DNA from: a virus
Length of the DNA: 27,106 nucleotides
Direction: 5' to 3' (one strand)
Virus record (IMG/VR): IMGVR_UViG_3300030098_004780
Span: 1 to 27,106 of that record
Shown here: piece after piece, positions 2 through 22,975 of the stretch
Layout: every line of letters begins with the position of its first letter
Position numbering within the stretch: position 1 is the stretch's first letter
The notes under the pieces: generated by a model
Told to the model about the DNA's origin: nothing
What the model saw: only the letters and a program-made list of their open reading frames with translations
Database searches by the model: none
Made by a program: the position numbers and the translations under genes

Positions 2-349
2 GATGGATTAAGAGTACAAGGTCTTTATAGATGGTATGATAACCACTATGCTGATTGGAGTCCTGATTCTCGTGAGGTTGATGGTGATGCTGACAGAGCA
101 CAAGTGTGGAAATCTCCATCTTATGGTAAGTTAGATTTACATCTATCTTACAAACTACCAGAAATTGCTGGTCTTGACTTGACTCTTTCAGGTCATGTAT
201 TTAATGCACTTGACGATATATATGTTCAAGATGCTGTTGATAACAGTAAGTACAATGGCTACGGTGATAAACTTCACCTTGCTCATAATGCTGAAGTATT
301 CTTGGGAACACCAAGACATTTTAACTTAGGACTTTCTGTTAATTTCTAA
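2..349 (+). CDS. TonB-dependent outer-membrane receptor, C-terminal fragment (runs off left edge)
   Basis: The frame is open from base 2 to the TAA at 347-349, giving about 115 residues with no start in the window, so this is the 3' end of a longer gene. It has the alternating amphipathic strands of an outer-membrane beta-barrel, including a strand with the motif GHVFNALD, then IYVQDA, typical of the last strands of TonB-dependent receptors. The protein ends LGLSVNF. A terminal Phe after alternating hydrophobics is the usual C-terminal signal for Bam-dependent insertion. Known family role: energised uptake of siderophores, vitamins or glycans across the outer membrane, and frequent use as phage receptor. 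The style resembles receptors of Bacteroidota/Marinimicrobia-type bacteria (inference from memory). It lies upstream of a T4-like replisome, which is unexpected. Whether a full-length receptor with plug domain exists cannot be seen here. Confidence 0.8.
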   Translation, partial: DGLRVQGLYRWYDNHYADWSPDSREVDGDADRAQVWKSPSYGKLDLHLSYKLPEIAGLDLTLSGHVFNALDDIYVQDAVDNSKYNGYGDKLHLAHNAEVFLGTPRHFNLGLSVNF

Positions 350-361
350 AACGATAAATTT

Positions 362-389
362 AGGGGGATTGAAATATATCCCCCTTTTT
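362..389 (+). terminator. Rho-independent terminator after the TonB-receptor gene
   Basis: A perfect 8-bp stem, AGGGGGAT (362-369) paired with ATCCCCCT (378-385), encloses an 8-base loop and is followed by TTTTT (385-389). It sits 12 bases after the receptor stop codon and ends 15 bases before the lipoprotein start. It is the only strong intrinsic terminator I see in the window, and it separates the receptor transcript from what follows. Confidence 0.9.
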
Positions 390-404
390 ATCAAAGGTAT
401 TTAA

Positions 405-905
405 ATGAAAAAGTTATTATTTTTATTATTATTATTCGGATGTGATGATAGGATTGAAGAGCAAAATAAATCAAATATCATAGTTACAATGCTAAGAGTT
501 CCTAGAATAGAAATATTAGATAACACATGGATTACGTCAACACCAATATGGGGACATTTACATTCCGAAGATAGCATACCTTTAGAAAGATTAGTGGTGC
601 ATTGGTGGAGTAATATGTATTGGGATGAAGATGACTCAAGTGGACATTACAGATTATTGTCTAATAGTAGAACTAAAGCAATATGGTATGATAACTTTGG
701 TAATAGAGATACAATGAATGTAAATGTAGACACTTTGAGATGGACTACTAATAGATATTCAATAGTTGACAGTCTAGGATATTTTTATAACTTATTAAGT
801 CCAACACAGGTTATGCAAAATAAAGGCTCTGGTAGTGAAATGAGATTGTATTGGAGTATACAAAACACATTGATAGATTCACAAGAAATTTTTTTAATGG
901 ATTAA
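405..905 (+). CDS. Small secreted lipoprotein of unknown function
   Basis: 166 residues. The N-terminus is MKK followed by a run of Leu/Phe (residues 4-11) and G12-C13, a short lipoprotein signal peptide with a lipobox-like LFGC; Phe at -2 is slightly atypical. The predicted mature protein begins Cys-Asp-Asp and continues with an acidic patch (RIEEQ). In enterobacteria, Asp at +2 retains lipoproteins in the inner membrane, whereas in Bacteroidota acidic residues after the Cys favour surface exposure, so localisation depends on the host. The rest is rich in Trp/Tyr and short beta-like segments with no family I recognise. A weak AAAGG lies just upstream of the ATG. It follows the receptor terminator. 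Phage lipoproteins near receptor genes recall the receptor-blocking Llp of phage T5, but there is no sequence evidence for that role. Confidence 0.7.
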   Translation: MKKLLFLLLLFGCDDRIEEQNKSNIIVTMLRVPRIEILDNTWITSTPIWGHLHSEDSIPLERLVVHWWSNMYWDEDDSSGHYRLLSNSRTKAIWYDNFGNRDTMNVNVDTLRWTTNRYSIVDSLGYFYNLLSPTQVMQNKGSGSEMRLYWSIQNTLIDSQEIFLMD

Positions 906-912
906 AAAACAC

Positions 913-942
913 TTGACTTATATATGGTTTTATTATTATATT
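913..942 (+). promoter_or_regulatory. Sigma70-like promoter upstream of the DNA polymerase gene
   Basis: TTGACT at 913-918 and TATATT at 937-942 are separated by 18 bases, in the 69-base gap between the lipoprotein and the polymerase. The same hexamers recur before the oxygenase gene (25626) and the -35 recurs before the clamp gene (3502), which raises confidence. Assigned by consensus only. Confidence 0.6.
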
Positions 943-974
943 TACATATCGAAAATGGGGATTTTATAATCTAA

Positions 975-3500
975 ATGTATCAAAATATTTGGTGTGAAAA
1001 AAGAGGTGGTAATCAAGTAGAAGTTCATCTTTGGGATGATGTAGCTGGTTATCAAAATTTTATATTTAAGAATTACGCCTATGTTCGAGATGGAAGTGGC
1101 ACATATCGCTCTATCTATGGAGACAAACTTAAGAAAGTCACATATTGGACAGAGGAAGATTTTAAGACTGGTCGTGTGTTCGAGTCTGATGTTCCATTAG
1201 AAACTCGTATCCTTTTGGATAGGTACGAAGACTCTGATGAACCATCTAAAAACCACAGAGAATTATTTTTTGATATCGAGGTAGAAGTTACCGATGGTTT
1301 TCCTGAACCATCTAAAGCACAAAACAAAGTTACCTCGGTTGCTATGTATACCAAACACGATGGAAAGTATCGTGTTTATGTTTTAGGAGAGGGACAAAAC
1401 AATATCAAAGACGAAGTAGACATTCGTTTTTATTCTACAGAGTCAGAGTTACTCAAAGAGTTTTTAAGATATTGGATAAAGGTTCAACCGACTTGTGTTA
1501 CTGGTTGGAACACTAATGGCTTTGATATTCCTTATTTATATAATCGTCTTTCAAAAGTTTTAGGTGAGGAGTTTGCTAATGCTCTATCACCAATACAAAT
1601 CGTTAAATATAATCCAAACAAAAAGATGTATAGAATTGCTGGTGTTAGTTCTTTAGATTATATGGATTTATACAGAAAATTTACATATACACAACAATCA
1701 AGTTATCGTTTAGACCATATCGGAACAATAGAGGTAGGGTTAGGTAAGGTCGAGTATGAAGGTACATTAGATGATTTATACAGAGATGACATTGATAAGT
1801 TTATTGAATACAACCTAAACGATGTTGAGATAGTTAAGGCACTTGACCAAAAGTTTAAATTTTTGGATTTAGCTAGAGCTGTATCTCACTTGGGTAGGAT
1901 ACCTTACGAAGAGGTTTACTTTAGTTCTCGATACATTGAGGGTGCTATGTTAGTATATCTTCGTAGTTTAGGTTTAGTTGCTCCGAGTAAAGGAGCTAAT
2001 GTGACATATGACGGTTCGGAGGGTAGATTTAGTGGTGCGTATGTTAAATCACCAATACCAGGTCGTTATGATTGGGTATTTGATTTAGACTTAACATCTA
2101 TGTATCCAAGTATCATTATGTCTTTGAATATGTCGCCAGAAACTAAAATAGGTAAGATAAATGGTTGGGATGCGGAAGAATTTATTAAAGGTGAAGAGAA
2201 ACACTATTCTGTAGATAAGGGTGGTAAGACAATCAGAACCTTTACAAGTGGACAACTTAAAGATTTCTTTAACAAGAATGAAGTATCCATTTCATCAAAT
2301 GGTGTTTTGTATGACCTCAAACAAAAGGGTGTTATACCAGCAATACTTGAGAAGTGGTTTAACGAAAGAGTAGAGTATAGAAAACTGGCAAAGAAGTATG
2401 GTGAAGAAGGGAATGACGAACTACACGGTTATTTTGACAGACGACAATTGGTACAGAAAATTCTTCTAAATAGTTTGTACGGAGTTTTAGGATTGACAGT
2501 ATTTAGGTTTTATGATATTGACAACGCTGAAGGTACGACAACAACAGGTCAGAAATTGATTCAATTTACAGAAACGATTGCTAATAGTTACTATAATAAG
2601 ATACTAAACACGAAGGAAGATTATTGTATTTACACAGATACAGACTCAGTTTTCTACTCTGCTCTACCACTTGTTAAGAATAGGTTTCCGAATGCTGATG
2701 TCGAAGATGATAAGTTTATGACAGAACAAATCCTTAAGATTGCTGGTGAGGTTCAAGACTATATTAATAAATCTTACAATTACTTCAGTAGTAAGTTTTT
2801 AAATATCAGAGGCGACCATCGTTTTGAGATTAAACAAGAGATGATTGCTAAATCTGCTTTTTGGGTTACCAAGAAAAGATATGGTCAATGGATTATCAAC
2901 GATGGTGGTTTGGAAGTAGAGAAACTTGATGTTAAAGGTTTAGATATTGTTCGTAGTTCATTTCCACCAGCATTTCGTGACTTCATGACTAAGGTTCTAA
3001 AAGCTATCCTTGCCAAAGTTCCAAAAGAAAAGATTGATGAGTTTATTCTAAATTTTAAAAATAATCTAAAGGATGAGGAGTTAGATAAGATTGCTCTTCC
3101 AACAGGTGTTAAAGGTATGAATAAATACATTGATAAATCAAAAAATGGATTTCAGAGTAAGACAATGTTTACATCAATGAAGAAAGGAGCACCAGTTCAC
3201 ACCAAAGCTTCTGTTATTTACAATGACTTACTTAGACATTTCAAGGTTACTAACCACGAACCTATTTCAAATGGTAACAAGGTTCGTTGGGTTTATCTAA
3301 AACAAAATCCTTATAATATTGATGGTTTGGCTTACAAAGGTTATGACGATCCTAAACAAATCATAGATTTTATCAATCAATATATTGACCGAGATAAATT
3401 ATTTGATAAAGCCCTTAGTAAAAAGATTAAGATGTTTTATGATGCTATGTCTTGGGATATGCCAGTAGAAAAGAAAAATACAATTGAAAAGTTTTTTTAA
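975..3500 (+). CDS. 43: T4-like family B DNA polymerase with 3'-5' proofreading exonuclease
   Basis: 841 residues, slightly shorter than T4 gp43 (898). Exonuclease motifs: Exo I FFDIEV (D100, E102), Exo II GWNTNGFD (D184), Exo III Y279-xxx-D283. Polymerase motifs: A, DLTSMYPSII (catalytic D372), B, KILLNSLYG (495-503), and C, YTDTDSVF (D555, D557). All catalytic acidic residues are present, so it should both polymerise and proofread. The extreme C-terminus, IEKFF, fits the short hydrophobic peptide with which gp43-type polymerases bind the sliding clamp. No intein or frameshift is visible. The start is the first ATG of the frame, preceded by GGGG about 14 bases away, a weak ribosome site. It is transcribed ahead of the clamp and clamp loader, an order different from T4 (45-44-62-regA-43), and regA is absent from this stretch. 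Confidence 0.97.
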   Translation: MYQNIWCEKRGGNQVEVHLWDDVAGYQNFIFKNYAYVRDGSGTYRSIYGDKLKKVTYWTEEDFKTGRVFESDVPLETRILLDRYEDSDEPSKNHRELFFDIEVEVTDGFPEPSKAQNKVTSVAMYTKHDGKYRVYVLGEGQNNIKDEVDIRFYSTESELLKEFLRYWIKVQPTCVTGWNTNGFDIPYLYNRLSKVLGEEFANALSPIQIVKYNPNKKMYRIAGVSSLDYMDLYRKFTYTQQSSYRLDHIGTIEVGLGKVEYEGTLDDLYRDDIDKFIEYNLNDVEIVKALDQKFKFLDLARAVSHLGRIPYEEVYFSSRYIEGAMLVYLRSLGLVAPSKGANVTYDGSEGRFSGAYVKSPIPGRYDWVFDLDLTSMYPSIIMSLNMSPETKIGKINGWDAEEFIKGEEKHYSVDKGGKTIRTFTSGQLKDFFNKNEVSISSNGVLYDLKQKGVIPAILEKWFNERVEYRKLAKKYGEEGNDELHGYFDRRQLVQKILLNSLYGVLGLTVFRFYDIDNAEGTTTTGQKLIQFTETIANSYYNKILNTKEDYCIYTDTDSVFYSALPLVKNRFPNADVEDDKFMTEQILKIAGEVQDYINKSYNYFSSKFLNIRGDHRFEIKQEMIAKSAFWVTKKRYGQWIINDGGLEVEKLDVKGLDIVRSSFPPAFRDFMTKVLKAILAKVPKEKIDEFILNFKNNLKDEELDKIALPTGVKGMNKYIDKSKNGFQSKTMFTSMKKGAPVHTKASVIYNDLLRHFKVTNHEPISNGNKVRWVYLKQNPYNIDGLAYKGYDDPKQIIDFINQYIDRDKLFDKALSKKIKMFYDAMSWDMPVEKKNTIEKFF

Positions 3501-3501
3501 C

Positions 3502-3516
3502 TTGACTTTTAGTCAA
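3502..3516. repeat. Perfect inverted repeat TTGACT-TTT-AGTCAA overlapping the -35 hexamer
   Basis: Six bases, TTGACT, are repeated inverted as AGTCAA across a 3-base TTT spacer, immediately after the polymerase stop. It could be an operator or a small hairpin in the clamp leader. The other two TTGACT promoters in the window lack the second arm. Confidence 0.5.
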
Positions 3517-3530
3517 ATAGTTAGTAAATT
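3502..3530 (+). promoter_or_regulatory. Probable promoter of the sliding-clamp gene
   Basis: TTGACT at 3502-3507 is followed after 17 bases by TAAATT (3525-3530). A better -10-like TATATT occurs at 3533 but at a spacing (25 bases) too long for sigma70. The -35 is embedded in the perfect inverted repeat described separately. The only room is the 57-base gap between polymerase and clamp genes. Confidence 0.45.
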
Positions 3531-3557
3531 AATATATTAATATGGAGAATAACAATA

Positions 3558-4280
3558 ATGAATAAAATCACATTAGATACATTTATCCAAAAATACAATC
3601 TTGGTGGTAGTATAAATTCAGTAAAGTGGGAGTCAAATGGCGATACACTTTCTACTCGTTTTATATCACCAGACAAAAGTCTTTTGGGTGAATTATCACT
3701 TAGTAAACAATCACTTCCAAACTTTGAGGTAGGTGTTTATGACACACCACTTCTTTCTAAAATGTTAGGAACTCTTGCTGATAAGATTGATTTCAATGTA
3801 ATTAAGTCACCAGCAGATGAATCACAACCTGTAGCATTTGGATTTTCAGATGGTAAAATATCTGTAAGTTATGTTCTTGCTGCTCTTGGTGTAATTCCTG
3901 ATGTGCCAGAACTAAAGAACATACCTGAGTTTGATACTCTTATCAATATCGATTCTCAGTTCATCAATTCTTTTATTCGTGGTAAAGGTGCTTTATCCGA
4001 TGTAGAACATTTTTCTATACAACCAACAGATGGTGGTGTAGAGTTCGTCATTGGTTTTAGTGACATCAACTCAAATCGTATTAGTATCAAAGTTCAGAGT
4101 GGTGCTGTAAAACTAACTGAACCAATCGTCTTCAACGCCAACTTATTTAAGGAAGTTCTAAATGCGAACAAAGAATGTTCTAAGGCAGTTCTTCAAGTAA
4201 GTTCAGGTGGTCTTGCTCATATTGAGTTTAAGATAGATGACTTTTCTGTTAAATATTACTTAGTATCACAACAGGTATAG
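3558..4280 (+). CDS. 45: T4-like sliding clamp (DNA polymerase processivity factor)
   Basis: 240 residues, close to T4 gp45 (228). The protein has the weakly conserved two-domain clamp pattern: an N-terminal TFIQKYNLGGSINSVKW region, a central strand with FEVGVYDTPLLSKML that parallels the FDVAIYDLNGFLGIL region of T4 gp45, and a C-terminal half with EFVIGFSD followed by beta strands and FSVKYYLVSQ. Known role: a homotrimeric ring encircling DNA that tethers the polymerase and, in T4, also activates late transcription. GGAG sits 11 bases before the ATG. The clamp-loader ATPase begins one base after the clamp stop codon, so the two are translationally linked. Assignment rests on pattern plus the flanking gp43 and gp44 genes. 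Confidence 0.9.
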   Translation: MNKITLDTFIQKYNLGGSINSVKWESNGDTLSTRFISPDKSLLGELSLSKQSLPNFEVGVYDTPLLSKMLGTLADKIDFNVIKSPADESQPVAFGFSDGKISVSYVLAALGVIPDVPELKNIPEFDTLINIDSQFINSFIRGKGALSDVEHFSIQPTDGGVEFVIGFSDINSNRISIKVQSGAVKLTEPIVFNANLFKEVLNANKECSKAVLQVSSGGLAHIEFKIDDFSVKYYLVSQQV

Positions 4281-4281
4281 T

Positions 4282-5193
4282 ATGAGTTCACATGGATTAT
4301 GGGTGGAACGATATCGTCCATCGACATTAGATACATATGTTGGTAATGAAACTCTCAAGACAAAAGTCGAGAGGTTCATAGAGGAACAAAACGTTCCACA
4401 CCTATTATTGTATGGTAGAGCCGGTGGGGGTAAAACAACCCTTGCCAAGATTATCGTAAATGCTATTGAATGTGACTATCTCTATATTAATGCTTCGGAT
4501 GAACGAAACATAGACTTGGTAAGAGATAAACTTAAGAACTTTGCTTCTTCTGTTGGTTTTAAACCAAACAAAATTGTAATCTTGGATGAGGCTGATTATC
4601 TTAATGTTAACTCAGCTCAACCGGCTCTTCGTAATCTTATGGAGACATTCTCACAACATTGTCGATTCATCTTGACTTGTAACTATGTTGAGAAAATTAT
4701 TGACCCGATACAAAGTAGATGTCAGACCTATAAGATTATCCCACCATCAAAGAAAGATGTTGCTGTTCACGCCAAGTATATCTTGGAAGAAGAGAATATC
4801 TCTTTTGATTTAGACGATTTGGCACTCGTGGTAACTGCAGGATATCCTGACTTAAGAAAAGTCATCAATGATTTACAGAGACAGGCGATTGATGGTCAGT
4901 TAAAGATAGACAAAGATGGAATGTTACATAACGAGTTCAAACTTCAGTTCTTAGATATGATAAAACAAGGTGTTGATTTAAGAACTATTCGTAAGTTTGT
5001 GGCCGATAGTAACTTTACAGATTACACAGAGCTGTATCGTTTCCTATATGATGAGGTAGAGAATATTTCTGTAGAGAAACTACCAGAGATTATCGTTGAT
5101 ATATCAAATGGTTCTTATCAAGATGTATTGGTCGTAGATAAAGAAATAAATTTTATGGCTACCATCTCTAACATACTTAGGAGACTACAATGA
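4282..5193 (+). CDS. 44: T4-like clamp-loader ATPase subunit (AAA+, RFC small-subunit type)
   Basis: 303 residues (T4 gp44 is 319). The N-terminus LWVERYRPSTLDTYVGN is the classic clamp-loader entry motif. Walker A is GRAGGGKTT (45-53, K51), Walker B ILDEAD (100-105), sensor 1 LTCN (131-134), and the arginine-finger motif SRC is at 145-147. An alpha-helical collar domain follows. Known role: a 4:1 complex with gp62 that opens and loads the clamp using ATP. It starts one base after the clamp stop and shares an ATGA overlap with the downstream zinc-ribbon gene, whose AGGAG ribosome site lies within its last codons. The gp62-like partner follows two genes downstream, so the complete clamp-loading machine is present. 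Confidence 0.95.
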   Translation: MSSHGLWVERYRPSTLDTYVGNETLKTKVERFIEEQNVPHLLLYGRAGGGKTTLAKIIVNAIECDYLYINASDERNIDLVRDKLKNFASSVGFKPNKIVILDEADYLNVNSAQPALRNLMETFSQHCRFILTCNYVEKIIDPIQSRCQTYKIIPPSKKDVAVHAKYILEEENISFDLDDLALVVTAGYPDLRKVINDLQRQAIDGQLKIDKDGMLHNEFKLQFLDMIKQGVDLRTIRKFVADSNFTDYTELYRFLYDEVENISVEKLPEIIVDISNGSYQDVLVVDKEINFMATISNILRRLQ

Positions 5194-5429
5194 ATATGAA
5201 ACCAAAAAAACCATTACCACAACAACAAGTTCAAGTTGATTTGAAGGATGCTGATACTATGAAGTGTCAATCGTGTGGGAATAGTATCTTTATACAAGGT
5301 TATGTTATAAAGAAAATATCTGCTATTGTTTCACCTACTGGTAAAGAAGTTATCGCTCCAATCCAAGTTTTTAATTGTGGAAATTGTGGGGAGATGTTAC
5401 CACTACAGGAATTAGATGAACTTATTTAA
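5190..5429 (+). CDS. Small zinc-ribbon protein inside the clamp-loader operon
   Basis: 79 residues. Two CxxC knuckles, C26-QS-C29 and C63-GN-C66 (each followed by Gly), are separated by a beta-rich 33-residue stretch, the layout of a single treble-clef or zinc-ribbon domain. The N-terminal 20 residues are Pro/Gln/Lys-rich and likely disordered. Start choice is supported by AGGAG (5179-5183) six bases upstream of the ATG, and by the 4-base overlap with the clamp-loader ATPase. No enzyme motif is visible. Position between the two clamp-loader subunits suggests a replication or transcription accessory factor that binds nucleic acid or the clamp complex, but this is inference. Confidence 0.75.
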   Translation: MNMKPKKPLPQQQVQVDLKDADTMKCQSCGNSIFIQGYVIKKISAIVSPTGKEVIAPIQVFNCGNCGEMLPLQELDELI

Positions 5430-5835
5430 GTGGATAGATGAACTATTTACCAAAAAAAGACCTTGGGATAGTTTTTCGGAAGAAGAGCAAAAGAAGTTTA
5501 GTCCGTTCATGGTTAATCGTTATTTAAGTATGAGTGATGATTTCTTACCTATTGTTAATCACTTTCAGAAGTTAACAATCGAGGTGATGCCACATTCGGC
5601 TGTCTACAAGTTTTATTGTTCTTTACTTCCAAACAAGAAAACATATCTAAGATACCTTAGTGGTAAAAAAACAAAGGTCAATGAAAAGGTTGTTCCTTTT
5701 ATTCAAGAATACTTTGAGGTCAGCAAGATACAAGCCGGTGAATACTATCGACTGATGAACAAAGACGAGTTAAAGTCTTTACTAACCAAGTATGGTAAAA
5801 CAGAAAAGGAAATAAAAAAGATGGGTGTTAAATGA
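5416..5835 (+). CDS. 62: Clamp-loader small subunit (gp62-like)
   Basis: 139 residues. Recognised by pattern against T4 gp62 (187 residues): SPFMVNRYLSM parallels the YSKFMVENALSQF segment of T4, then a helical region, then PNKKTYLRYL parallels PRGKRYGKW, and the C-terminal helices EYFEVSKIQAGEYYRLM and ELKSLLTKYGK parallel the RYQVNTNDAINYKSIL and NGK segments. It lacks the T4 N-terminal extension, as I recall is common in marine T4-like phages. Known role: the single non-ATPase subunit that anchors the gp44 tetramer. The start overlaps the zinc-ribbon gene by 14 bases, and the stop overlaps the next gene by ATGA. Similarity is low but the order 45-44-x-62 supports it. Confidence 0.8.
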   Translation: MNLFKWIDELFTKKRPWDSFSEEEQKKFSPFMVNRYLSMSDDFLPIVNHFQKLTIEVMPHSAVYKFYCSLLPNKKTYLRYLSGKKTKVNEKVVPFIQEYFEVSKIQAGEYYRLMNKDELKSLLTKYGKTEKEIKKMGVK

Positions 5836-6182
5836 GTAAGTTATGGATGGCAATTATTGCTCAATTGATTGGTTCATTATTCGCATTTTTTCAGTTACAA
5901 GGATGGGTTGTGTGGAATAAACAATGGTTACAATCTATCTGGTGGATGTACGCTACAAGTCTTGTTATAGCACCACTATTCTTTTGGAGCACCAAATGGT
6001 CTTATGAATACTTTGGTGCTTTTTGGAACATGAGATTGGCTGGATTTGGTATTAGTACGATTGTGTTTGGTCTACTAGCTTGGTTACTAATTGGTGAAAT
6101 TCCTACACTTAAAACATTAATAAGTATATTATTAGCGATATCAATTATTTTAATACAATTAACAAATGTAATAAAGGTATAA
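5832..6182 (+). CDS. Four-helix small membrane protein, EamA/SMR-transporter-like
   Basis: 116 residues, with predicted membrane segments at about 5-26, 34-52, 68-87 and 92-111 and aromatic-rich loops (WNKQW, FWSTKW). The last two helices, with a GEIPTLKTL turn followed by a long Ile/Leu helix, resemble the GE-turn seen in the drug/metabolite transporter (EamA/SMR) superfamily, whose smallest members are four-helix proteins of about this size. No substrate can be inferred. It overlaps the gp62-like gene by ATGA and ends two bases before the next gene, so it belongs to the replisome transcription unit. In a phage it would sit in the host inner membrane. Function unknown. Confidence 0.65.
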   Translation: MSKLWMAIIAQLIGSLFAFFQLQGWVVWNKQWLQSIWWMYATSLVIAPLFFWSTKWSYEYFGAFWNMRLAGFGISTIVFGLLAWLLIGEIPTLKTLISILLAISIILIQLTNVIKV

Positions 6183-6183
6183 C

Positions 6184-6564
6184 ATGAATATAAAAGAAAG
6201 AGAACTAGAAGTTGTAGAGGACATTCATCCAGTTGTAGAACAAATGGAAAAGGAATGGCCAGTTATGACAAAAGAGTTCAAAAGATTACAAAGACAACAA
6301 TACGAGTTGTTCTTAAAGAAACAACACGACTATGGTCCTGGTAATATTTCAGTTGGTACTATGTTACAAACTGAAGAGGAAATACACCTATCACTTACAG
6401 GTCTTTGGTTTAGAATGAATGACAAGATACAAAGACTTAAGACTTTACTAATGAGTGGTAGAGATAATGCAGTACAAGGTGAACCTATGGAAGATGCTTA
6501 TTTGGATGTATCTAACTATGGTATTATGGCAACAATCGTTAAAAATGGAAAATGGGGTAAATAA
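6184..6564 (+). CDS. Nmad1/DUF1599-like protein (MazG-like, nucleotide-modification associated)
   Basis: 126 residues, all-helical. Motifs in order: KKQHDYGPGN (45-54), an Arg/Asp/Lys helix WFRMNDKIQRL (75-85), and an acidic helix with E100, D104 and D108 in EPMEDAYLDVSNYG. This succession (DYG, then R..DK..R, then E...D...D..NYG) is that of DUF1599, named nucleotide modification associated domain 1, and is reminiscent of MazG-type NTP pyrophosphatases. Family knowledge: such proteins are predicted to act on nucleotides in phages with modified DNA; biochemical proof is limited. AAAGG lies five bases before the ATG. It overlaps the ClpP-like gene by one base (TAATG). Could alternatively be a general house-cleaning dNTPase. 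Confidence 0.75.
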   Translation: MNIKERELEVVEDIHPVVEQMEKEWPVMTKEFKRLQRQQYELFLKKQHDYGPGNISVGTMLQTEEEIHLSLTGLWFRMNDKIQRLKTLLMSGRDNAVQGEPMEDAYLDVSNYGIMATIVKNGKWGK

Positions 6565-7157
6565 TGGAAAGACATTGGGGAGAGAAACAAAAACCAAGAA
6601 AAGCTGATACTTCTACTGGTGAAAAACACATATCAGTACAAGATAATAAAATATATTTTTACTCCGGCGTAAATAGGAATTCTTGTGTAGAGTTAAATAA
6701 AAAGATTGGTGAATTAGAAAGTAAAAGCTTGACATTATCAAAAACTCTTGGTATATTACCACCGTCAGTAAAAATATTTATTAATTCAGGTGGTGGAACT
6801 ATAGTTAGTGGTATTGCTTCTATGGATACTATATTGAGATGTAAAGTTCCTGTTGAGACATATGTTGATGGTTTTTCTGCTAGTGCCGCGACATTCTTAA
6901 CGGTAGTTGGTAAGAAAAGATATATGAGTAGGAATTCTTATATGTTGGTTCATCAATTATCTACTACATTTTGGGGCACATACTCAAACTTCGAGGATGA
7001 GAAGCAAAACTTGGATTTGATGATGAAGAATATTAAGAACATCTATAAAGAATACACAAAGATACCAATGAAGAAACTCAACGAAATACTAAAACACGAT
7101 TTGATGTGGGATGCTAAAACTTGTTTAGAATATGGAATGATTGATGAAATTATTTAA
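6564..7157 (+). CDS. clpP: ClpP-family serine protease
   Basis: 197 residues, the usual ClpP length. The fold markers are the oxyanion strand INSGGGTIVSG, the nucleophile elbow DGFSASAATFL (catalytic S107 by alignment to AASMGAFL of E. coli), MLVHQL (catalytic H130), and LKHDLMWDAKTCLEYGMID (catalytic D179). The triad is complete. Known role of the family: tetradecameric peptidase working with a Clp ATPase. Phage versions may be prohead proteases or may redirect host Clp. Here it lies in the replication region rather than among head genes, and the first 20 residues are hydrophilic with no propeptide evident, favouring a host-proteolysis role (inference). It overlaps both neighbours by one base, so it is co-translated with the Nmad1-like protein and the nuclease. 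Confidence 0.9.
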   Translation: MERHWGEKQKPRKADTSTGEKHISVQDNKIYFYSGVNRNSCVELNKKIGELESKSLTLSKTLGILPPSVKIFINSGGGTIVSGIASMDTILRCKVPVETYVDGFSASAATFLTVVGKKRYMSRNSYMLVHQLSTTFWGTYSNFEDEKQNLDLMMKNIKNIYKEYTKIPMKKLNEILKHDLMWDAKTCLEYGMIDEII

Positions 7158-8020
7158 TGGCACATATATCACATAGTCAGTTTACCACTTATAACGATTG
7201 TAACCTTAAATGGAAACTTCGTTATATAGATAAGTTAGGAACTTTCGTAGGTAACATACATACTCTCTTTGGTTCAGCAATGCACACCGTAATACAAGAG
7301 TATCTATCGGTAATGTACAATAAATCTATTGTTGCTGCTGAGAAGATTAATATGGAGTCTCGGTTAAAAGAAGAGATGGTTGCCGAGTTTACTAAGATAA
7401 AAGAAAGTCAAAATGTGTTACCTTGTAGTCAAGACGAAATGATGGAGTTCTATCAAGATGGTCTTGCTATCTTAGAACATTTCAGAAAGTATCGTAATAA
7501 ATACTTTATGAAACAGAATTGGGAGTTAGTTGGTATAGAAGTTCCAATCCTAAAAGATGTCCAAGAGGGTGTGGAAATGATGGGTTTCTTGGATGTTGTT
7601 TTACGAAACAAGATATCAGGTAAGGTGGTTATCGTTGACCTAAAAACTGCTACTCGTGGTTGGACAGATTATCAGAAGAAGGATTTCAATAAGAAGTCTC
7701 AGTTATTGCTTTACAAGAAATATTACTCAGAACTATTTGATGTTCCGTTAGATAAGATAGATGTAATGTTTTTGATCCTAAAAAGAAAGATAGCTAAGAA
7801 TTCTGATTTTCTAATCACAAGACTACAGAAGTTTGAACCGGCAAACGGAGTTCCAAGTATTAATAAGGTTATGACTAAGTTTGATGAGTTTAGAAAAGGT
7901 GTGTTTGATGATAAGGGTAAATATCTATTAGAAAGAACTTACGCTGCGAAGCCAGGTAAGGTATGTAAGTTTTGTGAATTTTATGATACGGAGCATTGTA
8001 AATGGGGGAAAATCCTTTAA
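7157..8020 (+). CDS. RecB/Cas4-like PD-(D/E)XK nuclease with probable 4Fe-4S cluster
   Basis: 287 residues. The N-terminal helix SQFTTYNDCNLKWKLRY contains C15, and the C-terminus carries C270-KF-C273 and C281, which together form the AddB/Cas4-type iron-sulfur staple. The nuclease core shows H43 (GSAMHTVIQ), D146 (MGFLDVV) and the D161-L-K163 motif (VIVDLKT), followed by a conserved Gln region (SQLLLYKKYY). Family role: metal-dependent exonuclease or nickase used in recombination and end processing. No helicase domain is fused. It starts within the TAATG of the ClpP-like gene and overlaps the next gene by 19 bases. It may serve phage recombination or degrade host DNA; the exact substrate cannot be told from sequence. 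Confidence 0.88.
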   Translation: MAHISHSQFTTYNDCNLKWKLRYIDKLGTFVGNIHTLFGSAMHTVIQEYLSVMYNKSIVAAEKINMESRLKEEMVAEFTKIKESQNVLPCSQDEMMEFYQDGLAILEHFRKYRNKYFMKQNWELVGIEVPILKDVQEGVEMMGFLDVVLRNKISGKVVIVDLKTATRGWTDYQKKDFNKKSQLLLYKKYYSELFDVPLDKIDVMFLILKRKIAKNSDFLITRLQKFEPANGVPSINKVMTKFDEFRKGVFDDKGKYLLERTYAAKPGKVCKFCEFYDTEHCKWGKIL

Positions 8021-8418
8021 AGGTAGGAATTGTCGGTAGTCGAGAATACGAAAACCGAAAGAAGATAAAAGAATTTATTTTTAAATTAAAAGAAGAGAAA
8101 GGTCTCACCACAATCATCGTGAGTGGTGGTTGTCCCAAAGGAGCTGATTTTTATGCTAAAAAGTATGCTCTTGAATTGGGATTACAATATGAAGAGTATC
8201 CACCAGCACATCAGGCACATAATTTATATTGTCCACTACATGAGAGGAATTATGGTAAACCTTATAGTGTTAAAAACTTCTTTGCTCGTAATAAACAGAT
8301 TGCCATTCATTCAGAGTATGTTGTGGCATTTATTCCAAGAGGAGTTGAATCACCAGGTTCTGTATCAACCATAAATTATGCTAAGAAATTTGGAAAAAAA
8401 ACCCTTGTTATTAATTGA
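8002..8418 (+). CDS. SLOG-superfamily protein (DUF2493/YspA-like Rossmann fold)
   Basis: 138 residues, one Rossmann-like domain. The first strand VGIVGSREY (8-16) and SGGCPKGAD (41-49) are the two signature loops of DUF2493, part of the SLOG group related to DprA and LOG proteins. They are followed by AHNLYCPLH, an ARNKQIAIHSEYVVAF helix-strand and the third loop SPGSVSTINYA. Family knowledge: SLOG domains bind nucleotides or nucleotide-derived ligands, and several act as sensors in bacterial conflict systems. The start ATG lies inside the nuclease gene, with GGAG nine bases upstream, so the two are translationally coupled. Role unknown: nucleotide sensor or metabolism enzyme are both possible. 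Confidence 0.82.
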   Translation: MGENPLKVGIVGSREYENRKKIKEFIFKLKEEKGLTTIIVSGGCPKGADFYAKKYALELGLQYEEYPPAHQAHNLYCPLHERNYGKPYSVKNFFARNKQIAIHSEYVVAFIPRGVESPGSVSTINYAKKFGKKTLVIN

Positions 8419-8664: not shown

Positions 8665-8906
8665 TGAGAGAAGAATTAATTAAAGCTAGTAAAATACATT
8701 TTGAGGCACACATAGAAAAACATCGTATTAATGTTGAGAATCTATTACACAATTCAGTTGGTGTGGCAGAACACGCTGATATCATGGAAACTATAGAAAA
8801 AGAGTTAGAATTTATCGCCGAATATGATGATAAATTAAATGTTCTGAATAAATATTTTCCTAAAAATTATCAAGGTGATGACACAAGGAAGTTGATAAAT
8901 GGGTAA
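8664..8906 (+). CDS. Small conserved phage protein, unknown function
   Basis: 80 residues, predicted all-helical and highly charged. The segment with NSVGVAEHADIMETIEKEL resembles, from memory, a small hypothetical protein common in marine T4-like phages; I cannot name a function. No catalytic, metal-binding or membrane motif is visible. The start ATG overlaps the TGA of the RHH gene (TGATG), with GGGAG about nine bases upstream. The end overlaps the first glycosyltransferase gene by eight bases. It thus joins the RHH gene and the glycan cassette in one transcription unit. Confidence 0.6.
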   Translation: MREELIKASKIHFEAHIEKHRINVENLLHNSVGVAEHADIMETIEKELEFIAEYDDKLNVLNKYFPKNYQGDDTRKLING

Positions 8907-10260
8907 GAAAAAAATATTATTGATGTCTGATGACTTAAGGATGCATAGTGGAATAGCTACTGTGTCTAAAGATATTGTGTTTGAAACATTGAACGAATAC
9001 GATTGGGTTCAAATTGGTGGAGCTATAAAACATCCAGAGGAGGGTAAGATTGTTGATATGTCTGAAGGCCTTCAAAAAGACTTTGGGATAAAAGATGGAT
9101 ACCTTAGAATATATCCAGTTAGTGGGTATGGAAATGAGGATATACTTCGACAAGTTATAGAAATGGAAAAACCAGATGCCATACTTCACTACACAGATCC
9201 TCGTTTTTGGATTTGGTTCTATAATATGGAATCAGAAATCCGTAGAGATATTCCAATATTTTATTACAATATTTGGGATGACTTACCAGATCCTCAATAC
9301 AATACCAACTATTACAAGAGTTGTGATTTATTGATGGCAATATCAAAACAAACTTATGGTATCAATAAAAGATTATTACCTAATTATGAAGACTGGCAGA
9401 TAACTTATGTACCACATGGTATATCAAATAGAAGATTTCATAAAGTGGAAGATGACGATACTTCATTATTGGATTTTGATGCTAAATATGGTTTGTCCGA
9501 TAAAACCTTTAAAATACTTTACAGTAATAGAAACATTCGAAGAAAAATGCCAGGTGATGTTTTATTGGCTTATAAATATTTTATGGATGGATTAACACCT
9601 GAACAAAGAGAAGAATGTGTTCTTATTTATCATTGTGCTCCGATAGATGAAAATGGAACGGACTTGCCGAGAGTTCATAAACACCTATGTCCTGAATATG
9701 ATATTTGTTTTACATACGATGTCGATAATAGACCTTTTAATGATTCGGAGATGAACTTATTATTTAACTCTTCTGACGTTTATATCAATCTTGCTAGTAA
9801 TGAAGGGTTTGGTTTGGGTAGTTGTGAAGCACTTACTGTTGGAACACCAATTATTGTAAATGTTACTGGTGGTCTACAAGACCAATGTGGATTTAAGAAA
9901 GATGGTGAGTTCTTAACACCTGATGATTATATCGAGTTAGGTTCTAATCATACAGCAACTTATACTGAACATGGTGAATGGGTATTTCCTGTTTATCCAT
10001 CTAATAAATCTTTACAAGGTTCTCCAATGACACCTTACATTTTTGATGATAGATGTAAATCAGAAGATGCTGCTGTAAAGTTAAAAGAACTATATGACAT
10101 GGGTAGAGAAGAAAGAAAAAGACTTGGTTCGTTGGGAACAGAGTTTTGTAAAAATAATCTAATGACATCACAAGCTATGGGGCAGAGATTTATTGATTCT
10201 ATGAATGGTGCTTTTGATAATTGGAAACCACAACCCAAATATTACATGGAGGCAGTATGA
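8899..10260 (+). CDS. GT4-family glycosyltransferase (GT-B fold)
   Basis: 453 residues. The N-terminal domain begins KKILLMSDDLRMHSGIA, a Gly-containing acceptor loop, and the C-terminal donor domain has the strand KILYSNRNIRRKMPGD and the EX7E motif E302-GFGLGSC-E310 followed by ALTVGTPII, diagnostic of retaining GT4 enzymes using nucleotide-sugar donors. It is soluble, with no membrane helix. Sugar and acceptor are unknown. It begins the 18 kb glycan cassette and overlaps the next GT4 gene by ATGA, with GGAGG (10248-10252) as the ribosome site for that gene. The tail ends WKPQPKYYMEAV. Similar long GT4 proteins occur in large marine phages (recollection, not searched). Confidence 0.88.
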   Translation: MGKKKILLMSDDLRMHSGIATVSKDIVFETLNEYDWVQIGGAIKHPEEGKIVDMSEGLQKDFGIKDGYLRIYPVSGYGNEDILRQVIEMEKPDAILHYTDPRFWIWFYNMESEIRRDIPIFYYNIWDDLPDPQYNTNYYKSCDLLMAISKQTYGINKRLLPNYEDWQITYVPHGISNRRFHKVEDDDTSLLDFDAKYGLSDKTFKILYSNRNIRRKMPGDVLLAYKYFMDGLTPEQREECVLIYHCAPIDENGTDLPRVHKHLCPEYDICFTYDVDNRPFNDSEMNLLFNSSDVYINLASNEGFGLGSCEALTVGTPIIVNVTGGLQDQCGFKKDGEFLTPDDYIELGSNHTATYTEHGEWVFPVYPSNKSLQGSPMTPYIFDDRCKSEDAAVKLKELYDMGREERKRLGSLGTEFCKNNLMTSQAMGQRFIDSMNGAFDNWKPQPKYYMEAV

Positions 10261-11612
10261 AACGTTCAGTAGTTATGATTGCACCTTTTAATACCCGTAG
10301 TGGTTATGGTGACCATGCTCGTTCTCTTTTTTATTCTATTATGGATAGGGAAGATTTGGATATTAAATGTCTTGATGTTAAGTGGGGAAACACACCACGA
10401 AATCATCTAAGACCTGAGGTCCCAAGACATAGAAAGTTATTAGATAGTTTTGTAAATCAAGAACAAATACAAGGTCAACCAGACGTTCTTATTGATATCC
10501 GAATACCTAATGAGTTTGCCAGTGGTGCTAAGGTCAATATCGGTATAACTGCTGGTGTAGAAACAGATGTTGTGTCTCCTGAATTTTTAGAGGGTATGAA
10601 TCGAATGAACTTTAATATAGTTCCATCTAAATTTACGGCAGATACTTTCAATCGTTGTACATACGATAAGATGCAAGATTTACCCAATGGTCAAAAACAA
10701 AAAGCCGGTGAGATAAAGAATGAAAAACCTATAGCTGTATTGTTCGAGGGAGTTGATACAGACATATATTTTCCTAAAGAAAAACATGAATTAGAAAAAA
10801 ATGTGTATCAAGAATTAAATGAACTTATTAAAGAAGATTATGCTTATCTACATGTAGGGCAATGGGGTAAGGGTGGTTTTGGTGAAGATAGAAAAAACAT
10901 CGGAGTTTTAATAAAATCATTTTTGAAAGCATTTTCTAATATTATTAATCCACCAGCACTTGTTCTTAAAACCAGTGGTGCCAACTTTAGTATTCTTGAT
11001 AGAGACGAAACAAAGAAGAAAATACAAAAAGTAAAAGATATGTTTACGGGTGTAGACTTACCTAATATTTATTTAATACACGGTGACTTTACTATTGAAG
11101 AAATGTCAACACTTTACAATCATCCAAAGATTGCCGCTTTCATTACTTGTACTCATGGTGAGGGATTTGGAAGACCTATGTTAGAAGCCAGTTGCTGTGA
11201 CTTACCTGTGATTGCTACTAAATGGAGTGGTCATCTTGACTTTCTTACAGATTCAGAATCTATGTTGATTGATGGGTTTCTAAAAGAAGTTCCTAAATCG
11301 GCTTTGTGGAAACCAATTATTGTAGAACCGTCAAAGTGGTTTAATGTAAATGAAGCGGATGTAGTTAGAAAAATTAGAACTTTTCACAAGAAAAGAAAAT
11401 TAATACAAAAGAAAGCTACTCGTTTAGGTAAAAAAAACAGAAGAGAGTTTTCTCTAAAAGCTATGGCAAATAAATTTAATGGTATTATTAATGATGTGTT
11501 AAAAGAAACACCACAAGCTGTTAGTCTAAAATTACCAAAACTTAAAAAAGTTGATGGCGAAAATCCACAACCACCAAAACTTAAATTACCAAAATTAAAG
11601 AAGGTAACATAA
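10257..11612 (+). CDS. GT4-family glycosyltransferase with Lys-rich repeated tail
   Basis: 451 residues from the ATG at 10257, chosen because GGAGG stands five bases upstream and the ATG overlaps the preceding stop (ATGA); an upstream in-frame TTG at 10221 would add 12 residues without a ribosome site. The N-terminus SVVMIAPFNTRSGYGDHARS is a GT-B acceptor loop. The donor domain has the EX7E motif E302-GFGRPML-E310 followed by ASCCDLPVIATKWSGH. The last 30 residues carry two copies of LKLPKLKKV (424-432, 442-450) around a Pro-rich linker, giving a strongly basic tail that could bind nucleic acid, membrane or a partner. It is the second consecutive GT4 enzyme, so the two may add successive sugars. 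Confidence 0.88.
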   Translation: MKRSVVMIAPFNTRSGYGDHARSLFYSIMDREDLDIKCLDVKWGNTPRNHLRPEVPRHRKLLDSFVNQEQIQGQPDVLIDIRIPNEFASGAKVNIGITAGVETDVVSPEFLEGMNRMNFNIVPSKFTADTFNRCTYDKMQDLPNGQKQKAGEIKNEKPIAVLFEGVDTDIYFPKEKHELEKNVYQELNELIKEDYAYLHVGQWGKGGFGEDRKNIGVLIKSFLKAFSNIINPPALVLKTSGANFSILDRDETKKKIQKVKDMFTGVDLPNIYLIHGDFTIEEMSTLYNHPKIAAFITCTHGEGFGRPMLEASCCDLPVIATKWSGHLDFLTDSESMLIDGFLKEVPKSALWKPIIVEPSKWFNVNEADVVRKIRTFHKKRKLIQKKATRLGKKNRREFSLKAMANKFNGIINDVLKETPQAVSLKLPKLKKVDGENPQPPKLKLPKLKKVT

Positions 11613-12013
11613 TGGAAGATTTTGTGTTAAGAGTTAAGTGTCCACTAGAAACTTGTAGTGAGATAGAAGAGTCAATGGTATTGTTAGGTGATGGTGAACA
11701 AAATATGCAATGTTTAGCCTGTGGGTACGCTTCTAATAGTAAAATGAAAACTCACATCAAACCCTTTCCTGAAGATTTTAAAGATGTATGTATAGAAACA
11801 GATAAGGGTAGATATTGGGCACCATCGGTGTTCACCACGGAAAACTATAATGTTATTCCTATGGTTGATGATGGTGTATTAAAATGGAGAATATTTGCTC
11901 ATCAGAGTCCTGAGACAGAGGTGGTGGTTCCACTATTTTCTGATGCTTATAAAATGGTAGAAAAAATGGAGAAAGTTCTTGGCAAGACGATACAACAACA
12001 GACGGATAATTAA
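11612..12013 (+). CDS. Zinc-ribbon-containing hypothetical protein
   Basis: 133 residues. C10-PLET-C15 and C34-LA-C37 form a probable zinc site in the first 40 residues; the remainder is a beta-rich domain with RYWAPSVFTTENYNVIPM and a helical end. No catalytic motif is recognised. The ATG overlaps the previous stop codon (TAATG). The gene after it starts inside its last 35 bases. It sits between glycosyltransferases but looks like a phage accessory protein rather than a carbohydrate enzyme, and its function is unknown. Confidence 0.65.
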   Translation: MEDFVLRVKCPLETCSEIEESMVLLGDGEQNMQCLACGYASNSKMKTHIKPFPEDFKDVCIETDKGRYWAPSVFTTENYNVIPMVDDGVLKWRIFAHQSPETEVVVPLFSDAYKMVEKMEKVLGKTIQQQTDN

Positions 12014-12437
12014 GTCAATTCAAACAGTCCCATCTCGTAGGCTAATACCTGGTATGATAGTCACATTTAACTATTCTGAACAAGGTGTTATGGATCCTCG
12101 TCCTATTTTACTTTTTTTACATGAAGACAGTAAGACAAAAAATATTGAAGGTTTAAATTTAAATTATCTTAACCCAACTAAGTTAAAAAAATTATTCCAA
12201 GTAATGGATTTCAAAAAAACTAAGTTGGATGAAGTCGAAAATCTAATTAATTTAACTGATGATTATTTTAGGATTCAGATTTCTAACCCAAAGAAAAGGT
12301 CTGCAATGTCCACCAAAAGATTTTATAGTGATGTAATATTATCTGATAAATTTTTTAAAGAAGCATATAGAGCTTATAAAATAGGTAAATTGACCTCACT
12401 AAAAGTTACACAAATAAATACTCAATTTATTCAATGA
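11979..12437 (+). CDS. Conserved phage hypothetical protein (TTG start)
   Basis: 152 residues from a TTG start. This start is preferred because GGAG (11968-11971) lies seven bases upstream, although it overlaps the previous gene by 35 bases; the next in-frame ATG (12053) would remove 24 residues including the conserved-looking TVPSRRLIPGMIVTFNY stretch. That stretch, followed by RPILLFLHED and IEGLNLNYL, resembles small proteins found in many marine tailed phages (recollection). The second half is Lys-rich and helical. No enzyme or binding motif is recognised. It overlaps the GT2 gene by ATGA. Confidence 0.6.
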   Translation: MARRYNNRRIIKSIQTVPSRRLIPGMIVTFNYSEQGVMDPRPILLFLHEDSKTKNIEGLNLNYLNPTKLKKLFQVMDFKKTKLDEVENLINLTDDYFRIQISNPKKRSAMSTKRFYSDVILSDKFFKEAYRAYKIGKLTSLKVTQINTQFIQ

Positions 12438-13066
12438 AAATTAGTTACTCAATGTTGGTTCATAATGAAACCGACACTCTTGAAAAATTATTAGAATTTT
12501 TAGTAAAATTTAAACAACCACAGGACGAGATCGTTGTATTAGATGATTATTCTACTGAGGAAAAAACTAAAGCTATTTTGGATTATTATTCATCAGCAGA
12601 AAATGTTGTATTAGACCAAAGAAATCTATTACATGATTTTGCCAGTCAAAAAAACTACCTTAAGAATATGTGTTCTGGTGATTATAGTTTTAATTTGGAT
12701 GCGGATGAAATGGTTTCACATTGGTTCATGAAAGATATACATGAGATACTTGATGGTAATGAAGTTGATTTGATATATGTTCCAAGAATAAACACGGTAG
12801 ATGGGATAACGGAAGAGCATTGTAGAATGTATGGGTATCAAATAAATGAAAAGGGATGGATAAACTATCCTGACTGGCAAGGTCGTATCTTTCGTAACCG
12901 ACCAAACATACGTTGGGAAAAACCTGTCCACGAACAGATAGTGGGATTTCAAACTTATGCACATTTACCGATGGAGCAAAAGTATTCTATTGTTCACCCA
13001 AAAACAATACAGAGACAAGTAGAGCAGAATAGATTTTATAATGAAGAAATAAACAGTATCAAATGA
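12434..13066 (+). CDS. GT2-family glycosyltransferase (WaaE-like)
   Basis: 210 residues. The GT-A fold signature is clear: MLVHNETDTLEKLL at the N-terminus, VVLDDYSTE (D37-D38) for nucleotide binding, and the metal-binding LDADE (D89, D91). The later DWQGRIFRN and KPVHEQI (H166, E167) are characteristic of the WaaE/KdtX type of GT2 that transfers glucose or similar sugars to lipopolysaccharide core or other acceptors. It is soluble and compact, near the minimal GT2 size. Flanking 4-base overlaps on both sides place it within a coupled run of glycosyltransferases. The acceptor cannot be inferred. Confidence 0.85.
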   Translation: MKISYSMLVHNETDTLEKLLEFLVKFKQPQDEIVVLDDYSTEEKTKAILDYYSSAENVVLDQRNLLHDFASQKNYLKNMCSGDYSFNLDADEMVSHWFMKDIHEILDGNEVDLIYVPRINTVDGITEEHCRMYGYQINEKGWINYPDWQGRIFRNRPNIRWEKPVHEQIVGFQTYAHLPMEQKYSIVHPKTIQRQVEQNRFYNEEINSIK

Positions 13067-13932
13067 TTTTTCTTCGAATTTTAGACAATAATTTATATCA
13101 TGTTAAAGAAACTGATAATTTAGGTTTCGAAAAATCTGAGGGTTTATTTATACCAGATGAGTATTTAGATAGGCAAGAATTTATGGTTATGAAGACTGCT
13201 AGTGGTATTGGTGATTGGGGCATTGTGACAGCTATGCCAAGATTACTTAAAGAAAAGTATCCTAATTGTAAAGTGGTCGTACCATCTAAAAAACTTTTAA
13301 AAAAATTATTCGGACAAGAACATAATAATGTTCATATAACATTTGACAATAATCCATATATAGATGAGTTTGTTGATAAAATAGATGGTGAAGTATACCA
13401 CGACCATTACAGAATATATGATAAAGATAATCCAAACATACCATTAGTAAAACAAATGCTAACTTTTTGGCAATTCAATAAGGAGGAAATAAAAGATTCT
13501 CAACCAGAGGTATATTGGTCTGATGAGGAAAGGGAATTGGGTGATGCTATCATTAGTGAATATGTTGGTAATAAAGAGTTTGGTTGTTTGTTAATATCAG
13601 ACAGATTTGGCACACAGTATGGTAAGTATGATGAAGAATCTTACAAAAATGACTATACTAAAATAGATAAATTTTTAAACGATAATAAACTTCCATATTT
13701 TTATTGGAGCTATAAGGACTTGGATGATATAGGGTATAAAACGGTTGATAAAGCTTTAGATATGAAACATATGCATTTGAGAATACAGCTTTATATAAAA
13801 TCTAAAGCCAAAGTGAATATAAGTAATCAATGTGGTGCTAATCACATCGTTGCCAGATACTCAGATTGTTATGAGGTACAAAGACAATTTCCAATAGCAC
13901 ATAATTTTGTAGAAGGGGAAACCTATCTGTGA
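13063..13932 (+). CDS. GT9/heptosyltransferase-like protein
   Basis: 289 residues. MKTASGIGDWGIVTAMPRLL (G48-I-G50-D51) followed by YPNCKVVVPSKKL matches the N-terminal Rossmann strand and helix of GT9 (heptosyltransferase-type) GT-B enzymes, where the Gly-x-Gly-Asp loop contacts the acceptor. In the C-terminal half, LRIQLYIKSKAKVNISNQCGANHIVARY resembles the donor-domain segment that warns of an unoccupied sugar site in GT9. The usual ADP-heptose motif (DTG-L-HLA) is not evident, so the donor is uncertain. The start is the ATG overlapping the GT2 stop. The end overlaps the next gene, which begins with GTG. Moderate confidence in family, low in substrate. Confidence 0.6.
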   Translation: MIFLRILDNNLYHVKETDNLGFEKSEGLFIPDEYLDRQEFMVMKTASGIGDWGIVTAMPRLLKEKYPNCKVVVPSKKLLKKLFGQEHNNVHITFDNNPYIDEFVDKIDGEVYHDHYRIYDKDNPNIPLVKQMLTFWQFNKEEIKDSQPEVYWSDEERELGDAIISEYVGNKEFGCLLISDRFGTQYGKYDEESYKNDYTKIDKFLNDNKLPYFYWSYKDLDDIGYKTVDKALDMKHMHLRIQLYIKSKAKVNISNQCGANHIVARYSDCYEVQRQFPIAHNFVEGETYL

Positions 13933-19126: not shown

Positions 19127-19138
19127 GGGAAAAAGGTT

Positions 19139-21362: not shown

Positions 21363-21366
21363 AAGA

Positions 21367-22974: not shown

Positions 22975-22975
22975 T

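Follow-up and report, generated by a model that had tools for sequence, protein, structure and literature searches.

The auxiliary genes of phages mostly encode intracellular enzymes. TonB-dependent receptors commonly serve as phage receptors at the surface of the host, and one of them, the host receptor FhuA, is blocked by the phage T5 lipoprotein Llp. Versions encoded by phages themselves have been reported from the sea. The marine megaphage Mar_Mega_1 contains a SusC TonB-dependent receptor, which the accessible part of its account proposes to be an uptake gene and records in one megaphage and a relative (PMC9723777). The pelagiphage Polarivirus skadi possesses a putative TonB receptor gene situated amid tail and capsid genes, which was taken as a hint to the adsorption receptor of the phage and was not found in other cultivated pelagiphages (PMC10504331). 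Here we describe a family of complete TonB-dependent receptors embedded in the replication module of T4-like phages, together with an RNA element that accompanies it.

The window analyzed by us, a stretch of 27,106 nucleotides, comprises bases 1-27,106 of a 49,964-base IMG/VR virus record, i.e. the left part of a phage contig (Table 1). A preliminary description had placed the 3' end of a TonB-dependent receptor and a small lipoprotein just upstream of a gp43-like polymerase, with a terminator and a promoter in the interval. This layout holds, with the terminator preceding the lipoprotein and the promoter-like sites following it; matching to the consensus yields 11 such sites in place of the 7.1 expected by chance. 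The receptor ORF is incomplete because the contig itself begins at base 1 of the window, and the earlier suggestion of a captured fragment does not stand: contig L006 (55 kb), from another metagenome, is 99.8% identical in nucleotide sequence to positions 2-8346 of the window, i.e. over 8.3 kb, and extends leftward through the entire receptor gene (L006:5583-8348). The gene is therefore complete in the same viral population, as it is in dozens of relatives, and the proposed leftward extension thus recovers the plug as well as, by inspection, a hydrophobic leader. Further to the right, the replication operon includes a gene for a ClpP-like protease (window 6564-7157), seen in only part of the clade, and is followed by a long run of glycosyltransferase, nucleotide-sugar, C-methyltransferase and NolO-like carbamoyltransferase genes (window 8899-24813), which constitutes a surface-sugar cassette in a T4-like phage. 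Relatives of the Mom family are present in many of the loci, suggesting modified phage DNA, and one phage genome encodes two Mom-family (PF25680) proteins (L173:3260-4030 and L171:12167-12805).

Table 1. Features at the left end of the window, with positions counted from its first base
Feature	Position	Strand	Remark
TonB-dependent receptor, C-terminal 115 residues (barrel end, terminal Phe)	2..349	+	weak PF00593 match, E 0.005
Intrinsic terminator of the receptor transcript, 8 pairs and T tract	362..385	+	between receptor and lipoprotein
Small phage lipoprotein (166 aa), optional at the receptor-gp43 junction	405..905	+	
Two promoter-like sites (913-942 and 941-970)	913..970	+	consensus match only
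gp43-like family B DNA polymerase	975..3500	+	PF00136/PF03104
Conserved replication-module protein of unknown type	3558..4280	+	context
gp44-like clamp-loader ATPase	4282..5193	+	context
gp62-like clamp-loader small subunit	5416..5835	+	context

The full-length receptor spans about 910-920 residues and displays a hydrophobic N-terminal leader, a CarboxypepD_reg domain, a plug and a barrel. Its CarboxypepD_reg and plug domains score far above the Pfam cut-offs, with the plug (PF07715) exceeding the cut-off in six full-length phage copies. Inspection additionally reveals an invariant, LEVLASR-like TonB-box-like motif between these two domains. An AlphaFold model (pLDDT 71, pTM 0.67) forms a barrel of about 24 strands as read from DSSP; it is moderate in confidence and poorly predicted in the plug region, and the assignment of loops and turns rests on it. 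In Foldseek searches of the PDB with this model all 50 listed matches are TonB-dependent transporters, with E-values down to 1e-25; they include Fiu, PqqU and FhuA, and neither these nor the other fold matches identify a substrate for the phage protein. The polypeptide terminates in an aromatic residue, F (window 2-346). With plug, barrel and terminal aromatic residue, leader and TonB-box-like motif all in place, it belongs to the TonB-dependent receptor/transporter superfamily. It falls outside the SusC/RagA family, scoring 53.7-70 bits with TIGR04056 against a cut-off of 368 and having no SusD-like neighbor. TonB, ExbBD and periplasmic partners are absent from the annotated phage stretches, which implies that these components are supplied by the host.

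When viral contigs were searched with the 115-residue tail, at least 307 viral stretches proved to encode the receptor, and the best 80 of these derive from 69 metagenomes, as judged by contig names; counts of loci given here overlap in part, the same contigs being recovered by different queries. The search for the receptor-gp43 junction in other phage contigs, as advocated in the preliminary description, thus found it in 80 contigs from 69 metagenomes. Wherever the flanks are present the gene order is uvsX, exonuclease, gp41, NrdJ, receptor, gp43, a gene of unknown type, gp44 and gp62, with gp43 as the right-hand neighbor of the receptor in every relative that extends so far. A gene for gp23, the T4-type major capsid protein, is present on the two longest contigs, of 164,845 and 130,380 bases. 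Two contigs of the receptor clade, L107 (NZWA01000089.1) and L151 (PBHZ01000014.1), are phage sequences misfiled in Flavobacteriales and Euryarchaeota (Euryarchaeote) MAGs. Among named phages, the receptor has only partial or approximately 30%-identical matches, in unannotated gut contigs and megaphages; two of the former, MT837399.1 and MT837128.1 (human-gut 'Bacteriophage sp.'), encode full-length receptors about 30% identical to it and may be bacterial contigs or prophages. The nearest named polymerase, at 46% identity, is that of Microcystis phage Mel-JY01, which has the replication genes but neither the receptor nor NrdJ beside gp43.

The nearest cellular relatives of the phage receptor, with 55-68% identity, come from Candidatus Neomarinimicrobiota (Marinimicrobia, SAR406; Fidelibacterota). 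A maximum-likelihood tree groups 51 phage copies in a single clade nested within Fidelibacterota, and the sole row in it with a cellular label, L108, is a 4.3-kb MAG contig of uncertain nature. All nine Marinimicrobia genomes tested encode exactly one close orthologue (61-70% identity) among 7-16 matches to TonB receptors, and an orthologue is detected at E<=1e-150 in 62 of 120 genomes of the phylum, which vary in size. The tree accordingly points to a single host origin of the phage receptor, from Marinimicrobia. As the gene originates in this lineage, Marinimicrobia phages are its likely carriers, and the T4-like phages that bear it most likely infect Marinimicrobia (SAR406); a library search returned no described Marinimicrobia phage of such a kind. 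The host orthologue stands alone amid housekeeping genes, with neither NrdJ nor the leader element described below adjoining it, and this context does not reveal its substrate.

Across 29 phages in which all four genes are present, the receptor (83%) and NrdJ (87%) have mean amino-acid identities above those of gp43 (64%) and gp41 (67%), and the pairwise dN/dS of the receptor, 0.10, indicates purifying selection. In pairs of phages whose polymerases are less than 60% identical, identity at fourfold sites is 0.60 for the receptor versus 0.44 expected at random, with the corresponding values being 0.50 versus 0.40 for NrdJ and 0.44 versus 0.41 for gp43. This excess in diverged pairs shows that the receptor was exchanged among lineages after their polymerases had diverged. 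It comes from the host and is both intact and under selection in the phages, as expected of an auxiliary metabolic gene of a lytic phage. A search based on NrdJ, and hence unbiased toward the receptor, finds the latter downstream in 66 of the 72 NrdJ loci with room for it. The six receptor-less loci are scattered in the NrdJ tree and call for at least four changes. One of them (L223) retains a deletion scar in which the end of NrdJ is joined to the final receptor codons and the receptor terminator; in L265 and its near-copies the receptor leader and start codon persist without the receptor, the site being occupied in L265 by a 484-aa ORF with no Pfam match (L265:7222-8673); and L271 has a tRNA-like gene at the receptor site (about 7016-7168). 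Such repeated loss implies dispensability, and these comparisons indicate that the receptor is an ancestral yet dispensable gene that has been lost at least several times.

What the receptor might do for the phage is suggested by the parts that have been conserved. Its plug shows 92% identity between phage and cellular versions, and its extracellular loops are 84% conserved among phages and close to those of the host protein; comparison of phage and cellular receptors uncovered no cluster of fixed phage-specific changes in the loops. Retention of the plug, the TonB-box-like motif and the conserved loops argues for a working importer with the substrate of the host protein and not for a diverging decoy, and the phage receptors are most likely functional importers. 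We therefore lean, with moderate confidence, towards the view that the receptor is a host-derived auxiliary gene which maintains or raises import by the host in a widespread clade of T4-like phages likely to infect Marinimicrobia. Under this proposal the phage would make a full copy of the single most conserved TonB-dependent receptor of its host, probably early or midway in infection alongside the replication genes. The product would then be exported, inserted in the outer membrane and coupled to the TonB-ExbBD of the host, and could there sustain or boost active import of its natural substrate during phage DNA synthesis. The phage would thus probably control uptake by the host during infection, in line with the original remark that a phage with its own TonB-dependent receptor is unusual and could alter host uptake.

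A different possibility is that the receptor works as a receptor-replacement or superinfection device, which floods the surface or competes for insertion and thereby shields the cell from other phages. Such a role would suit the frequent use of TonB receptors by phages, and the same contigs have long sugar-modification cassettes, which might likewise alter the surface; the many transporters returned by the fold search include FhuA, the receptor of T5 that Llp blocks. We nevertheless regard it as unlikely, because the loops are host-like with unclustered fixed differences, the retained plug and TonB-box-like motif would be needless in a passive decoy, and an additional receptor with host-like loops would leave the existing receptors in place.

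The interval upstream of the receptor gene contains a near-invariant sequence of about 38 nt, GCGGACAGGCAGACGACACACCTGTAGAAAAATGTGTC, which is present in all 121 NrdJ-receptor junctions for which sufficient sequence exists; many of these overlap, and they comprise 53 distinct sequences. It forms an H-type pseudoknot, in which ACAGG pairs with CCUGU and GACACA with UGUGUC. Both helices are perfect in 108 of the 121 loci, and 98.8% of the pair cells across the 53 distinct sequences are standard pairs. Six of the 11 pairs vary on both sides, accounting for 28 cells as opposed to 4.4 in shuffled controls, and the signal collapses in slid controls. Between the end of the pseudoknot and the receptor start codon lie 28-36 nt, which comprise an A-rich stretch and a ribosome-binding site. 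An interpretation as a 3' element of NrdJ was rejected, as it remains with the receptor where genes have been inserted after NrdJ. Each phage contig that includes the receptor leader has one copy, and none was found elsewhere in the phage genomes, in 18 host genomes or in host leaders. Rfam yielded no match at the gathering level, the only hits up to E 10 being at chance level. This previously undescribed, phage-specific folded RNA element probably sets translation of the receptor or stability of its mRNA. More speculatively, it could be a riboswitch of a new, ligand-sensing class that arose in the phage and tunes synthesis of the importer to the supply of the imported compound, possibly the cofactor of the adjacent reductase; we view this as unlikely. 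At the other end of the gene, 80 of 83 loci have a terminator no more than 90 nt from the receptor stop codon, as against 1 of 300 random windows, and none was found between NrdJ and the receptor. Given this strong terminator after the gene and none before it, transcription probably continues from NrdJ into the receptor and stops ahead of gp43.

The upstream neighbor, NrdJ, is a class II, B12-dependent ribonucleotide reductase of the RTPR type (PF17975, PF21995). Its only PDB match is the enzyme of L. leichmannii (1L1L), the NPC.E and Cys motifs are retained, and NrdB, the class I small subunit, is absent from all 19 phage contigs examined; RTPR domains, catalytic Cys motifs and the lack of a separate beta subunit together place it in class II. 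A class I reductase had earlier been misannotated in P-SSP7 (PMC6370689); for the phages studied here, such an error is ruled out by the absence of NrdB and the presence of the RTPR motifs. Derivation of NrdJ from the same host as the receptor was also rejected: the phage type was not found in nine hosts, in a search that lacked a positive control, and the reductase of these hosts is of the NrdJ_Z type. A CobS-type cobalt chelatase is likewise not evident in the phages, the search giving just one AAA match below the cut-off.

The presence of a B12-dependent NrdJ next door, without NrdB, raises the idea that the receptor imports cobalamin (B12) to feed the phage's own reductase for dNTP synthesis. 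In keeping with it, nearly all loci have a gap of only 27-89 nt between the two genes, and this gap contains no terminator; distances between phages for the receptor correlate better with those for NrdJ (0.68) than with those for gp43 (0.32); and the Marinimicrobia hosts too rely on a class II reductase, which is present in nine of nine genomes with NrdB missing in eight. However, the hosts appear to have a different receptor for cobalamin. A single cobalamin riboswitch is found in 18 of 20 Marinimicrobia genomes and, wherever the downstream gene is readable, precedes another TonB receptor, which shares no more than 21% identity with the phage receptor and whose plug was confirmed in three cases. 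This riboswitch-controlled protein is the probable B12 receptor, a paralogue of the phage-type receptor, and its existence lowers the likelihood of the cobalamin reading. The genomes L181-L198 have one cobalamin riboswitch each, before a plug-bearing TonB receptor where checked, and so furnish candidate host B12 receptors. No cobalamin riboswitch was found near the host orthologue (7 loci) or in the phage loci, which argues against a BtuB assignment, and the reductase is the only B12-related gene in the context of the phage receptor. Moreover, the receptor is missing from six NrdJ loci, over 1,000 named phages possess an RTPR-type reductase without such a receptor, and the RNA element tracks the receptor and not NrdJ. 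We accordingly rate import of cobalamin as rather improbable. These observations suggest that cobalamin matters to both phage and host, but that what connects the receptor to it is adjacency alone.

The lipoprotein, of 166 aa, displays a short hydrophobic leader followed by a lipobox-like Cys that is invariant in 15 relatives. It has no match in Pfam, PHROG, NCBIfam or named phages, and derivation from the host was rejected, as 13 Marinimicrobia genomes lack a homologue. The preliminary description had compared it to T5 Llp, and one may envisage that it blocks the receptor as Llp blocks FhuA, with the two proteins acting as a pair. The adjacency of their genes in the window and the lipobox-like Cys would be compatible with this, but of 79 receptor-gp43 junctions just 11 contain the lipoprotein and 68 lack it; it is also found in unrelated loci of phage contigs that have no receptor nearby; a terminator parts the two genes; and the receptor-gp43 gap, a hotspot for insertions of different kinds, ranges from 102 to 2,638 nt. 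Hence, a functional pair of this type is very unlikely. The structure model of the lipoprotein (pLDDT 44) is too poor for docking. It is best read as a genuine, optional and mobile phage lipoprotein. Phages with members of this family and no receptor nearby also encode, at L094:14187-16248 and L099:9442-10856, several proteins whose N-termini resemble those of type IV pilins/pseudopilins (GFTLIELIMVMIILGIL...).

Finally, the start of the window within the receptor and the bacterial origin of the gene might evoke contamination, a bacterial chromosome or an assembly chimera at the contig end, as the preliminary description had cautioned, yet this explanation has a negligible chance of being right and is refuted by recurrence of the junction, flanked on both sides by phage genes (adjoining T4-type replication genes, and gp23 on the two longest contigs), in 80 contigs from 69 metagenomes, separation of the phage clade from cellular copies, restriction of the leader RNA to phages and persistence of receptor deletion scars in relatives.

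If our favored reading of the receptor as a host-derived importer is true, viruses would also govern what their hosts draw from seawater, by means of a lytic phage clade that almost always bears a complete outer-membrane import receptor under selection. It points to Marinimicrobia, an abundant uncultured phylum, as the host; and as the receptor is the most conserved TonB receptor of that host, its substrate would shed light on the physiology of the host as well as on viral ecology. The pseudoknot newly described here is, in turn, a small and testable RNA.

Comparison with known systems helps to delimit what is distinctive here. The host gene is the closest counterpart: the TonB receptor of Fidelibacterota that is not controlled by a riboswitch is orthologous, with 55-70% identity and the same domains, but it is a stand-alone gene, whereas the phage copy has a pseudoknot leader and NrdJ as neighbor. 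BtuB-type cobalamin receptors share the fold class, and the phage copy adjoins a B12-dependent enzyme; they differ in that the phage receptor has no riboswitch and the riboswitch of the hosts controls another paralogue. The T5 system resembles the present one in concept, namely a phage lipoprotein and a TonB receptor, but Llp acts on a receptor of the host, whereas in the present phages the receptor is their own, and the lipoprotein, an optional component, is unrelated to Llp by any test made. In Polarivirus skadi, too, a marine phage gene is annotated as a TonB-dependent receptor, but that gene lies near tail and capsid genes, and it was not retrieved by our receptor query against named phages. 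With Mar_Mega_1 the phages share a full TonB receptor in a marine phage, proposed for uptake. When the viral structure library was searched with our model, only one full-length match was clear, an uncultured marine phage SusC, A0A8D9FQQ5, which is probably that of Mar_Mega_1; it is distant (11% identity in the fold match), and the accessible part of its account gives no host lineage, synteny, selection or RNA element (PMC9723777). As for the RNA, the T4 gene 32 translational operator is a pseudoknot of about 28 nt followed by an unstructured ribosome-binding region (PMC535899). The element described here is likewise, by covariation and geometry, a compact H-type pseudoknot, and in the mRNA of a T4-like phage it too leads into an unstructured, A-rich segment and a ribosome-binding site; unlike the operator, it precedes the receptor and not gp32, and the motif is absent from the gp32 leaders examined. 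A literature search, which excluded preprints and most subscription journals, returned no paper describing this receptor family in T4-like phages. Thus, phage-encoded TonB receptors have precedents, and what appears to be new is a receptor family in T4-like phages together with its attached RNA element.
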